From the IMG/VR virus record IMGVR_UViG_3300037584_004436, positions 1-28,020 of that record: a DNA stretch of 28,020 bases; one strand, 5' to 3'. The notes under the pieces are model-generated. The model was not told the DNA's origin and did no database searches. It saw only the letters and a list, made by a program, of their open reading frames with translations. This stretch comes from a virus. A program made the position numbers and the translations under genes. Of the stretch, positions 2,843-12,793 are shown piece after piece; position 1 is the first letter of the stretch; each line of letters opens with the position of its first letter.

Positions 2843-3355
2843 TCAGGAATTAGTATTTTCGCTGAAGTCGGAGATAGAGTCCCTCCCCTCACTATCTCCG
2901 ACAACTTTATAATTGCCCTCGATAAATGCAGATGGGTATTGTTTCCTAATTTCAGCAAGTCTTGCTACTATTTCATCACGGCTAAGTTGGTCGATATGGT
3001 GGGTAGTTTCTCGCCTATCAATAGTCAGACCTCCGAGTGCAGATCTAATTTTTTCGGCATTAATAGCAGAGCTAAATTGTCCTTGATCTTCTGCCCCCCT
3101 ACTAAGTTCATGAAGTCTTTTAAGTTGACCAATAAGAGTTACTCCATATTTTCTTTCTCTTTCTTCTCGGAGTTCTTTTAAATGTTCAGTTACAAGTGGA
3201 AAATCTTTACCATTCAAAAGCAGACTAGCAGTTTTATGTGCTTGAGAATGAGAATATCCTGCTCTCCTAGCACACTCGCCATTGCTATAAATACCCTCGC
3301 AAATAAGTTTGCAGAACTCTTTTTGTCTATTAGTAAGAAACTTTTCTTTTGGCAT
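2843..3355 (-). CDS. terS: Terminase small subunit (170 aa)
   Basis: The N-terminus has the pattern of phage terminase small subunits: LTNRQKEFCKLICEG, then a helix-turn-helix (GECARRAGYS, residues about 27-36) and an A-x-x-LL segment. Charged helices that would form the central oligomerisation region follow. The protein recognises phage DNA at the packaging start and hands it to the large terminase. Length is normal for the family. The gene is leftward, the direction of the late genes at 16866-28020, yet it sits alone among rightward early genes; no large terminase is next to it in this window. A promoter match lies just upstream. No Shine-Dalgarno precedes the ATG, so translation may be from a very short or leaderless mRNA. 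Confidence 0.85.
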   Translation of the reverse strand: MPKEKFLTNRQKEFCKLICEGIYSNGECARRAGYSHSQAHKTASLLLNGKDFPLVTEHLKELREERERKYGVTLIGQLKRLHELSRGAEDQGQFSSAINAEKIRSALGGLTIDRRETTHHIDQLSRDEIVARLAEIRKQYPSAFIEGNYKVVGDSEGRDSISDFSENTNS

Positions 3356-6162: not shown

Positions 6163-7191
6163 ATGAACCGAGATCACATTGACCTTTGTTCGGGGATCGG
6201 TGGCTTTGCTTTAGGTTTCTCGTGGAGTAGTTTAAATACTACTCCCAAACTTTTCTGTGATACTGAAGAGTGGTGTAGAAAAGTAATAGCCAAGAATTTT
6301 CCGAAAGTACCAATAGCAAATGACGTTAAGGAGGTAGCAAATGACCCAAAAAGATTTATTCGAAGAAGACCATTCATCCTCACAAGTGGATATCCATGCC
6401 AACCATTTTCAGTTGCAGGTCGTAGGGGAGGCGAAGAAGATCCTCGCCACATCTATCCGTACATCCAAAGAATTGTTGAACAAGTCAGACCCTCTTGGAC
6501 AGTTTACGAAAATGTTTATGGACACTTCTCAATGGGACTTGACGAGGTTCTCTTTCAAATGGAAAGCATTGGTTACGCAACGAGGACGTTTGTGTTTCCG
6601 TCTAGTGCAATCGGAGCATTGCACAAAAGGGACAGAGTTTGGATCGTTGGGAAATACATGGGCGACACCGAACACGATGGATCATCTTCCACCGAGATCG
6701 GAGGAGGCAACGAAGAAACTACAGAACGGACACAGAAAGGGAAGAAAGCGACCAAGCAATCTAAGGGAGCAAGTAGATCCAAACACGATAAAACTGTATC
6801 CGACTCCGAGAGCCTCGGACGTAGAGGGGGGAATGGCGAGCAATGTGGAGATCAACAACGGAAGATTCTCGAGGAAGAACAAGGACGGAGTTCGGTGGGG
6901 AGTAAAGTTGAGGGATGCCGTGAATCACATGGAAACTTTTCCGACACCTCGAGCGAGCGAGTACAAGGATTGTGGAGCAGTTGGGAGCAAGAGTCAGATC
7001 CACATGGACAATCGGTCATATCTGTGTGCCAAAGTGAAAGACCCCCACAAACCATCTGGAAAGTTGAACCCAGTGTGGACAGAGTGGTTGATGGGTTACC
7101 CAAAAGGGTGGACAGAATTAAAGGACTAGGCAATGCAATAGTTCCTCAAAATGCCATGATAATAGCGAATGCAATAGAAAAAAGTTTATAG
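6163..7191 (+). CDS. C5-cytosine DNA methyltransferase (342 aa)
   Basis: The motifs of C5 methyltransferases occur in order: motif I (DLCSGIGGF, residues 7-15) for S-adenosylmethionine, motif IV PCQPFS with catalytic Cys79, motif VI ENV (116-118), motif VIII KRDRVW (from 155) and motif X GNAIVPQNA (from 323). It transfers a methyl group to cytosine in an unknown target, probably to resist host restriction. The target-recognition segment (about 165-300) is unusually low-complexity and rich in Ser/Glu/Gly/Lys. There the same DNA also encodes a second protein in the +1 frame (6341-7129), about 77% of this gene's length. The last motif WKVEPSVDRVVDGLPKRVDR before motif X is typical of phage enzymes, so the C-terminus looks intact and not frameshifted. 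Confidence 0.93.
   Translation: MNRDHIDLCSGIGGFALGFSWSSLNTTPKLFCDTEEWCRKVIAKNFPKVPIANDVKEVANDPKRFIRRRPFILTSGYPCQPFSVAGRRGGEEDPRHIYPYIQRIVEQVRPSWTVYENVYGHFSMGLDEVLFQMESIGYATRTFVFPSSAIGALHKRDRVWIVGKYMGDTEHDGSSSTEIGGGNEETTERTQKGKKATKQSKGASRSKHDKTVSDSESLGRRGGNGEQCGDQQRKILEEEQGRSSVGSKVEGCRESHGNFSDTSSERVQGLWSSWEQESDPHGQSVISVCQSERPPQTIWKVEPSVDRVVDGLPKRVDRIKGLGNAIVPQNAMIIANAIEKSL
6341..7129 (+). CDS. Nested gene inside the methyltransferase gene (+1 frame, 262 aa)
   Basis: A complete frame nested in the methyltransferase gene. Its ATG is preceded by a strong Shine-Dalgarno, AAGGAGG (6328-6334), 6 bases upstream, which the outer gene does not need. The protein is low in random-frame character: WATPNT (107-112), YPTPRASD (153-160) and FPTPRASE (200-207) form three related repeats, and the C-terminus (242-262) contains LNPVWTEWLMGYPKGWTEL. 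I know this PTP-A-D and LNP...EWLMG.P.GWT pattern from phage and prophage proteins found with C5 methyltransferases. Function is unknown; a role as methyltransferase partner or specificity factor is inference. The outer frame is also conserved-looking, so a simple frameshift artefact is unlikely. Confidence 0.85.
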   Translation: MTQKDLFEEDHSSSQVDIHANHFQLQVVGEAKKILATSIRTSKELLNKSDPLGQFTKMFMDTSQWDLTRFSFKWKALVTQRGRLCFRLVQSEHCTKGTEFGSLGNTWATPNTMDHLPPRSEEATKKLQNGHRKGRKRPSNLREQVDPNTIKLYPTPRASDVEGGMASNVEINNGRFSRKNKDGVRWGVKLRDAVNHMETFPTPRASEYKDCGAVGSKSQIHMDNRSYLCAKVKDPHKPSGKLNPVWTEWLMGYPKGWTELKD

Positions 7192-7200
7192 AATTGTGGT

Positions 7201-7381
7201 CGGCATTGCCTCCTTTCAGTGCGATGGTGGAATATCGTGTCTTCAATGTCGTAGATGTCTTGTTAGAATATGCCCACAGAGGGGGTTTTTATATATATTT
7301 TTACCCCGTTTATTCCATATCTAACAAGGGAAATGCCGAATGCCGTAATGATAACAAGGCAAAATCTACGAAAATCCACCA
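7201..7381 (+). ncRNA. Candidate structured leader RNA before the gene at 7401
   Basis: The 209 bases between the methyltransferase stop and the next ATG hold no supportable gene but many complementary segments. The strongest is 7259-7272 with 7316-7328 (13 bp, one bulged A). Inside it GGGGT/ACCCC (7282-7286, 7303-7307) pair. Outside it 7249-7256 pairs with 7364-7371 (8 bp), and 7225-7231 with 7375-7381 (7 bp). CGGCATT (7201-7207) can pair with either copy of a tandem AATGCCG repeat (7332-7338, 7339-7345). The structure ends just before the Shine-Dalgarno at 7391, so it could control translation. The RNA class is not recognised. Confidence 0.42.
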
Positions 7382-11254: not shown

Positions 11255-12793
11255 GTGAATTTAGCAGAAGAATTATTAGAAGCATTTAGTGGGTTTAGTA
11301 CGGCTCATGGGCAGACAGAAGTGTCTCAAGAACGTACGGCAGGAAAACAGAAAGCAAAATCATTTATAGTAAGAAATCCTCTTACTTTGGAATTGATAGA
11401 AGGGCACATCAACGGCAAAAAAGGTGTTGGTGCGATCCCAATAAACGAAGAAAATAAGTGCAAGTTTGGTGCATTGGATATAGATCAGTATCCATTAGAT
11501 CACAATAAATTAGTTGATAAACTAGCAGAACTCAAAGTACCATGTATCGTGTGCCGTAGTAAATCGGGTGGTGCACATATTTTTTTCTTTTTTAAGGAAT
11601 GGATGAATGCTGGGGACTTTAGGGACAAGGCTGCTGAAATATCTTCTGCTCTTGGGCATGGTCGGTGCGAAATATTCCCGAAGCAGGAACAGATTCTTGT
11701 CGAGCGGGGGGATGTGGGTAACTTCATTAATCTGCCATATTTTGACTCGGATCAAACACTCCGTTATGCAATCCTCAAAAAAAGAACAAGCTATATCGAG
11801 GCATCACTCTCGGAGTTCATCAAGCAAATACACAAAGTCAAAACGAGTCCCAAAGATTTTTTAAAATTACCGATAGGCGGACCTGTTGACTTGTTACCTA
11901 ATTATATACCTTGTCTTAGAACAAAACTAGCAATAGGAGTGTTTGAGGGCGAAAGAAACAGAACTGCATTTCATTTAGGTGTGTTTTTACAAAGACTTGA
12001 TCCTAGTAATTGGAAAACAAAACTTGAAGAACACAACATGAAAGATTTTAATCCGCCATTATCTGCATCAGAAGTTGTAGCCATTCAAAATACATTAGAG
12101 AAAAAAGAATATCAGTATCTTTGCAAAGAAGAGCCTATGTCTTCACACTGCAATCAGAGTGTATGTCGAACTATGAAATTAGGTATAGGTGCTACATCGA
12201 TGCCAACAATAAGTGGCTTGTCTGTTATTTTATCCGAGCCAAGATTGTGGTTTGTAGATATAGGTGGTCAGAGATTAGAGATAACCACAGAAGAATTACA
12301 AGCACCTCGTTTGTTTCAGCGAGCATGTATGGAACAATTAAAAGTTATGCCTCCTAAATTAAAAGATGCAGATTGGGAATCAACAGTTAATGATTTGATG
12401 GAAAAGTGCAATGAGATACAAGTTCCCGAAGAATTAACATACAAGGGTCAGTTTGTATCTATACTTGAATCTTACTGTACAGGTCGAGTTCAAGCACAAA
12501 CTTTTGAAGAAGTTATGTTGGGTAAACCATATACTGAAGTAGAAGAAGGTAGAACATATTTTAGATTAGACTCGTTGATGGAGTTCATGCGACAGAAAAA
12601 GTTTGATAGTTACACGAGAGCACAAGTACAAGAAAGACTCAAAGAGATAAACAACGAAGAAAGTTCTATTGTAAAAAAATTTAAAACATCAGCAGGTAAA
12701 TGGAAATCAGTTAGAGTTTGGTGGATACCAGAGTTTGCTTCTGAAGTAGAAATTGCAGATGTACTTATTGAAACAGAGGAGGCTCCGTTCTAA
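11255..12793 (+). CDS. Archaeo-eukaryotic-type (AEP) DNA primase (512 aa)
   Basis: The N-terminal domain has the AEP layout: DID (75-77) as the metal-binding acidic pair, SKSGGAH (102-108) with the catalytic His108, and a third acidic/basic block around Glu139 (EIFPKQ), followed by GNFINLPYF. This resembles primases of the TOTE type. The middle contains a Cys/His cluster (CKEEPMSSHCNQSVCRT, about 290-306) that may bind zinc. The C-terminal part is helical and ends in ETEEAPF, similar to an SSB tail. The product would make primers for the polymerase at 14862. The start is GTG at 11255, with GGAG 6 bases upstream. No helicase domain is fused; the helicases are separate genes. Confidence 0.85.
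   Translation: MNLAEELLEAFSGFSTAHGQTEVSQERTAGKQKAKSFIVRNPLTLELIEGHINGKKGVGAIPINEENKCKFGALDIDQYPLDHNKLVDKLAELKVPCIVCRSKSGGAHIFFFFKEWMNAGDFRDKAAEISSALGHGRCEIFPKQEQILVERGDVGNFINLPYFDSDQTLRYAILKKRTSYIEASLSEFIKQIHKVKTSPKDFLKLPIGGPVDLLPNYIPCLRTKLAIGVFEGERNRTAFHLGVFLQRLDPSNWKTKLEEHNMKDFNPPLSASEVVAIQNTLEKKEYQYLCKEEPMSSHCNQSVCRTMKLGIGATSMPTISGLSVILSEPRLWFVDIGGQRLEITTEELQAPRLFQRACMEQLKVMPPKLKDADWESTVNDLMEKCNEIQVPEELTYKGQFVSILESYCTGRVQAQTFEEVMLGKPYTEVEEGRTYFRLDSLMEFMRQKKFDSYTRAQVQERLKEINNEESSIVKKFKTSAGKWKSVRVWWIPEFASEVEIADVLIETEEAPF

Follow-up and report, generated by a model that had tools for sequence, protein, structure and literature searches.

A gene nested in the +1 frame of a phage C5-cytosine methyltransferase gene and its proposed role as the second subunit of a split enzyme

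A complete second gene was found in the +1 frame of a C5-cytosine methyltransferase gene in a 28-kb virus record (IMGVR_UViG_3300037584_004436; 28,020 nucleotides, analyzed at full length and called the window here). The pair very probably encodes one split C5-cytosine methyltransferase of the M.EcoHK31I kind, whose alpha subunit is the outer protein and whose beta subunit, proposed to carry the target-recognition domain (TRD) and motif IX, is the inner protein. Comparison with relatives shows here that both frames are conserved coding sequence and that the middle of beta varies as a cassette. Long genes nested on the same strand as their host gene are rare. They are often dismissed, and gene callers usually keep only one frame.

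The locus and the catalytic chain

The outer gene (6163..7191, plus strand), the proposed alpha (catalytic) subunit, encodes 342 amino acid residues. The inner gene (6341..7129, plus strand), the proposed beta subunit, encodes 262 and matches phrog_1008 (2.1e-26). Both ORFs are intact, as a sequence-only reading of this DNA had described. The other elements named in that reading are also present: the Shine-Dalgarno sequence AAGGAGG, read directly at 6328..6334 (plus strand) within the outer coding sequence and located 6 bases before the inner ATG at 6341; three repeats in the inner protein; and the outer motifs, including motif X after the overlap. The replication module of the window lies on the plus strand, and its Pfam matches are a SNF2-type helicase, a TOTE-type primase, a UvrD-type helicase, and a family A DNA polymerase. 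The primase gene (11255-12793) has an AEP-TOTE domain, the name of which was first given in conflict systems, inside this phage replication module. A terminase small subunit-like gene lies on the minus strand (2843-3355) among the plus-strand early genes (Pfam E 1.9e-5, just under the cut-off). A possible hairpin (GGGGGTTTTTATATATATTTTTACCCC) is found at about 7275-7310, a short distance 3′ of the methyltransferase gene.

Residues 6-206 of the outer protein match Pfam DNA_methylase (2.4e-30), and the protein also matches phrog_363 (1.4e-56). Its model was matched to M.HhaI by Foldseek with prob 1.00, and the best folds were M.HhaI and its relatives. In an alignment of 102 members, invariant residues were found in five motifs, all on the plus strand: G11 and G14 in motif I (IDLCSGIGG, 6178..6204), P78 and the catalytic Cys79 in motif IV (SGYPCQPFS, 6385..6411), E116, N117, and V118 in motif VI (ENV, 6508..6516), H154, R156, and R158 in motif VIII (HKRDRVWI, 6622..6645), and G323, N324, and P328 in motif X (GNAIVP, 7129..7146), which begins on the last base of the overlap.

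The AlphaFold model of the outer protein (102 homologues) has high confidence for residues 1-175 apart from a dip, is disordered for residues 176-307 (132 residues; 6688..7083, plus strand; pLDDT <50), and becomes mostly confident again in the motif X helix at about 310-342. Gly, Ser, Glu, and Arg are abundant in the predicted linker, which is near-neutral in the outer frame and occupies the canonical position of the TRD and motif IX. The alignment of the outer-family profile with canonical C5 methyltransferases ends after motif VIII. Since the linker is disordered in the model and the profile alignment stops there, alpha apparently has no counterpart of the small domain in which M.HhaI and M.HaeIII house the recognition region and motif IX (PMC3404938), and it is predicted to have neither a folded TRD nor a folded motif IX. 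The outer chain resembles these two enzymes in having motifs I-VIII and X and the catalytic fold. Unlike canonical single-chain enzymes, it has no TRD or motif IX detected between motifs VIII and X in the model or the profile alignment.

Selection on the inner frame

Is the inner frame a real gene? In a close group of 20 sequences including the window, the outer third positions differ at 0.28 before the overlap and 0.31 after it, versus 0.083 inside it, and the inner wobble position (equal to the outer first position) differs at 0.166. I performed a wider codon-position test on 95 disjoint pairs of phage and bacterial loci, counting the differences per site at codon positions 1/2/3. The values were.149/.088/.390 before the overlap and.144/.106/.422 after it. 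Inside the overlap, they were.158/.091/.205 over the outer motifs IV-VIII and.189/.085/.114 near the overlap end, and both frames are constrained in these two parts. Between motifs VIII and X, they were.364/.174/.168, which is the pattern of the inner frame. The outer third-position change was lower inside the overlap in 89 of 94 pairs. The middle part comprises about 126 codons in the window, and selection there lies nearly all in the inner frame. Thus, the earlier suggestion that both frames are selected at once over about 77% of the gene holds for the part over outer motifs IV-VIII and for the C-terminal part but not for the middle, where the inner frame is selected nearly alone.

When the window is compared with most relatives over the same DNA, the inner protein is conserved as much as or more than the outer protein (for example, 0.863 for the inner and 0.749 for the outer against locus L011). 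The Shine-Dalgarno match before the inner starts was 5.10 in 147 loci, versus 3.91 predicted from outer coding and codon usage (Wilcoxon p 1e-20, kinship among the 147 loci being ignored). Synonymous shuffles of the window that keep the outer protein and its codons left the inner frame free of stop codons in about 1% or less. Because an open inner frame has a chance of about 1% given the outer protein, openness by itself is modest evidence, and the comparative data are decisive, namely the codon-position reversal in relatives and the nesting found in nearly all homologues (see below). Summed probabilities from multi-locus stop-count shuffles, whose loci were chosen for open frames and whose sequences are related, were set aside as evidence.

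From these comparisons, the inner frame is a protein under purifying selection. A conserved but untranslated shadow of the methyltransferase coding sequence would fit the modest improbability of openness in a single sequence and the fact that the inner frame in part shares its DNA with conserved outer motifs. It does not fit the third-position constraint in the overlap, the inner wobble pattern in the middle, the higher conservation of the inner protein between most relatives, or the Shine-Dalgarno enrichment. The shadow hypothesis was rejected on the codon-position patterns of the close group and the 95 pairs, and its remaining probability is negligible. The sequence-only reading had itself weighed an annotation shadow with no extra constraint against its claim, and that objection fails on the codon-position patterns and the nesting.

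Nested, un-nested, and broken loci

Among the ORFs matching the inner profile in viral and bacterial loci, 272 of 278 lie cleanly in the +1 frame inside an outer methyltransferase gene; these are loci and not independent genomes, and some contigs occur in both sets. Most of the loci were found by inner similarity and 32 by outer similarity, an open frame being no criterion. This result bears out the expected co-occurrence of the two genes as overlapping frames. As for the other six ORFs, two overlap but match the outer profile too, and four are C-terminal fragments adjoining a nested pair. No stand-alone inner homologue clearly lacking an outer frame was found in the viral, bacterial, and phage loci searched. 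In L026 (2119-2350) and also in L030, L031, and L254, a second inner-type C-terminal fragment with a WPTP repeat and LNPDWVEWLMGYP lies right after the outer gene. It is possibly a remnant from replacement of the 3′ part.

When records were read singly, nesting was seen by ORF coordinates in phages of diverse hosts: Escherichia K1H and Bas74 (L307), Pseudomonas PMG1, Xanthomonas PhiXhv-18, Synechococcus Ssp-JY39, Mycobacterium Ochi17, Lactobacillus Lc-Nu, and Salmonella SEN4, as well as in a Bacteroides plasmid record and in L001-L003. The outer frame is broken in L001 and in L311. In the latter (Mycobacterium phage Ochi17, 898-1814), the outer methyltransferase is split between two frames, each annotated as a DNA methylase gene, and the inner ORF is short. 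The nested ORF has been annotated as 'Mte8-like' in K1H and as a second methyltransferase in Paenibacillus larvae phages, and it is annotated in PhiXhv-18 too. The PHROG 1008 or 'Mte8-like' ORFs of K1H and the P. larvae phages are homologous to the inner gene of the window and likewise nested, their annotated function being only 'methyltransferase' or 'Mte8-like'.

In 17 genomes, the methyltransferases matching the whole Pfam DNA_methylase have no nested partner, except for L280 with a weak inner match of 62 amino acids, and those matching Pfam over roughly motifs I-VIII carry the inner frame. Matches turned up in 5 of 300 Bacillota genomes, one match being marginal (E 8e-4), so that the pair is uncommon in bacterial genomes; it is probably prophage-borne.

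A few loci are un-nested. In the Paenibacillus isolate L305 (L326 has the same sequence), alpha stops directly behind motif VIII, and the inner protein and motif X, in this order, are encoded by one ORF. A second virus, L327, has the same layout with a beta 59% identical to that of L305/L326. At these loci (L326:2319-3634 and L327:2196-3589), the ORF carrying the inner protein and motif X still partly overlaps alpha in +1. The un-nested layout was also found in L133, a metagenome assembly. The occurrence of this layout in two divergent sequences argues against a sequencing error. According to PMC3404938, M.AquI consists of two polypeptides, the split lying in the variable region that follows motif VIII. 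The window differs from M.AquI, whose small subunit has motifs IX and X, in that motif X stays in the outer frame and beta is nested instead of following alpha; only L305/L326/L327 and L133 resemble the M.AquI layout in that their small subunit has both IX and X. The order TRD-IX-X in the un-nested ORF matches the M.AquI small subunit, and this lineage supports the view that the inner protein is the missing piece of one enzyme. The Paenibacillus macquariensis genome has a second copy (L320), in which both frames seem fragmented; it is probably a decayed pair.

The inner chain and its likely function

The inner protein of the window has three repeats on the plus strand: WATPNTMD from residue 107 (6659..6682), YPTPRASD from residue 153 (6797..6820), and FPTPRASE from residue 200 (6938..6961). 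Inner proteins mostly have 1-6 repeats with a spacing of about 40 residues, and the protein length tracks the repeat number. With an identity of 75% or more required in the N-terminal part, 887 pairs of inner proteins were compared. In 85 of them, the middle falls below 40% identity, but the C-terminal 20 residues keep at least 70%; the pairs are not independent of one another, and 85 is not a count of exchange events. In L206 and L244, for example, the N-terminal part is 86%, the middle 14%, and the C-terminal part 80% identical. In these alignments, the repeat-bearing middle varies as a recognition cassette exchanged between relatives would, and the inner protein was therefore read as the probable target-recognition part. 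It ends in LNPVWTEWLMGYPKGWTEL. The proposed motif IX comprises residues 241-260 (KLNPVWTEWLMGYPKGWTEL; 7061..7120, plus strand), where L242, N243, L250, M251, and P254 are invariant. In hhalign, the sole match of the inner protein to a canonical C5 methyltransferase profile fell exactly on motif IX (LTxREaaRLQGFPD), although this match is weak (E 0.045, HH probability 1%) and the motif IX-like nature of the C-terminus is suggestive only. The model of the inner protein has low confidence (pLDDT 61.9, pTM 0.29), and no PDB relative was found either by its sequence or by the fold of this model.

Lee, Kam and Shaw (1995) reportedly found the small polypeptide of M.EcoHK31I to be encoded in a different frame inside the large gene, both polypeptides being needed for activity. 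This small polypeptide has about 176 residues. M.EcoHK31I and M.EaeI are both two-polypeptide C5 methyltransferases with the site YGGCCR. The 'Mte8-like' label in K1H is no more than a lead toward homology with M.EcoHK31I. The window resembles the described layout of M.EcoHK31I: its small polypeptide is encoded in the +1 frame within the large gene, although at 262 residues with PTP repeats it is larger than that of M.EcoHK31I, and the pair comes from a phage and not from an Escherichia coli restriction-modification system. According to PMC3404938, the large polypeptide of M.EcoHK31I has motifs I-VIII and X, as in the window, and the small one has motif IX; in the window, inner residues 241-260 align weakly with motif IX of canonical enzymes, and the outer chain has no folded motif IX in its model. 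The same source places the predicted TRD of M.EcoHK31I in alpha, not beta, unlike the window, where the TRD position of alpha is predicted to be disordered and is near-neutral. The published M.EcoHK31I and the annotation of the nested ORF in some phages thus overturn the earlier statement that such a pair had no formal description. The breadth of the layout across phages and bacteria appears to be undescribed; no description of the phage family as such was found in the open-access literature searched, which omits most subscription papers.

How might the two chains work together? In alpha, motifs I-VIII and X would form a catalytic domain resembling that of M.HhaI, and the long stretch connecting VIII to X would be a disordered linker. 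Beta would be translated from its own Shine-Dalgarno sequence and ATG, and would supply in trans what alpha lacks: target recognition by a variable region that bears the repeats, and a C-terminus similar to motif IX. I infer that alpha and beta assemble, that both are needed for activity, and that together they methylate the phage DNA at a sequence that beta specifies; protection from host restriction is the presumed purpose.

The sequence-only reading had left open whether the inner product is a partner, a specificity subunit, or an inhibitor. A partner or specificity subunit is the most likely, and an inhibitor found no support. More generally, the inner protein might be an accessory (an inhibitor, an anti-restriction factor, or a stabiliser) of an outer protein that methylates alone, which would accord with the missing structural match and the low-confidence model of the inner protein. 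Such a role is improbable, given that the outer model has no folded TRD or motif IX and the outer protein matches canonical enzymes only through motif VIII, and that the inner protein has a motif IX-like C-terminus and is fused to motif X in the un-nested lineage. It is still less likely that the inner frame is reached from the outer frame by a programmed +1 frameshift, giving one fusion chain with motifs I-VIII, the TRD, and motif IX. Motif VIII, the TRD, and motif IX do follow in one chain in canonical enzymes, and a few loci have mixed frames (L192). However, the inner start and its Shine-Dalgarno sequence are conserved and lie upstream of motif VIII, so that the inner N-terminal residues overlap the catalytic core of alpha, and the outer frame is open to motif X: across the middle of 96 loci (selected for open frames) it has 0 stop codons, where about 448 would be expected.

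The split-enzyme reading can be extended to a widespread family, and I lean slightly toward this extension. The nested beta would carry the TRD in full, with PTP repeats in varying number (mostly 1-6) as its units, and the TRD would be exchanged as cassettes; the overlying stretch of alpha would be a near-neutral disordered linker that needs only to be free of stop codons. If so, new specificities evolve inside an overlapping gene. The arrangement indicates how an overlap can be relieved, with one frame catalytic at its ends and a free linker in its middle, and the inner middles would form a set of natural TRD cassettes. Conservation of the nested gene extends to phages infecting many hosts and to several bacterial phyla. 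Because of this breadth, a protein annotated as a 'cytosine methyltransferase' is in many cases probably half of an enzyme, the specificity subunit of which either lacks an annotation or is called hypothetical.
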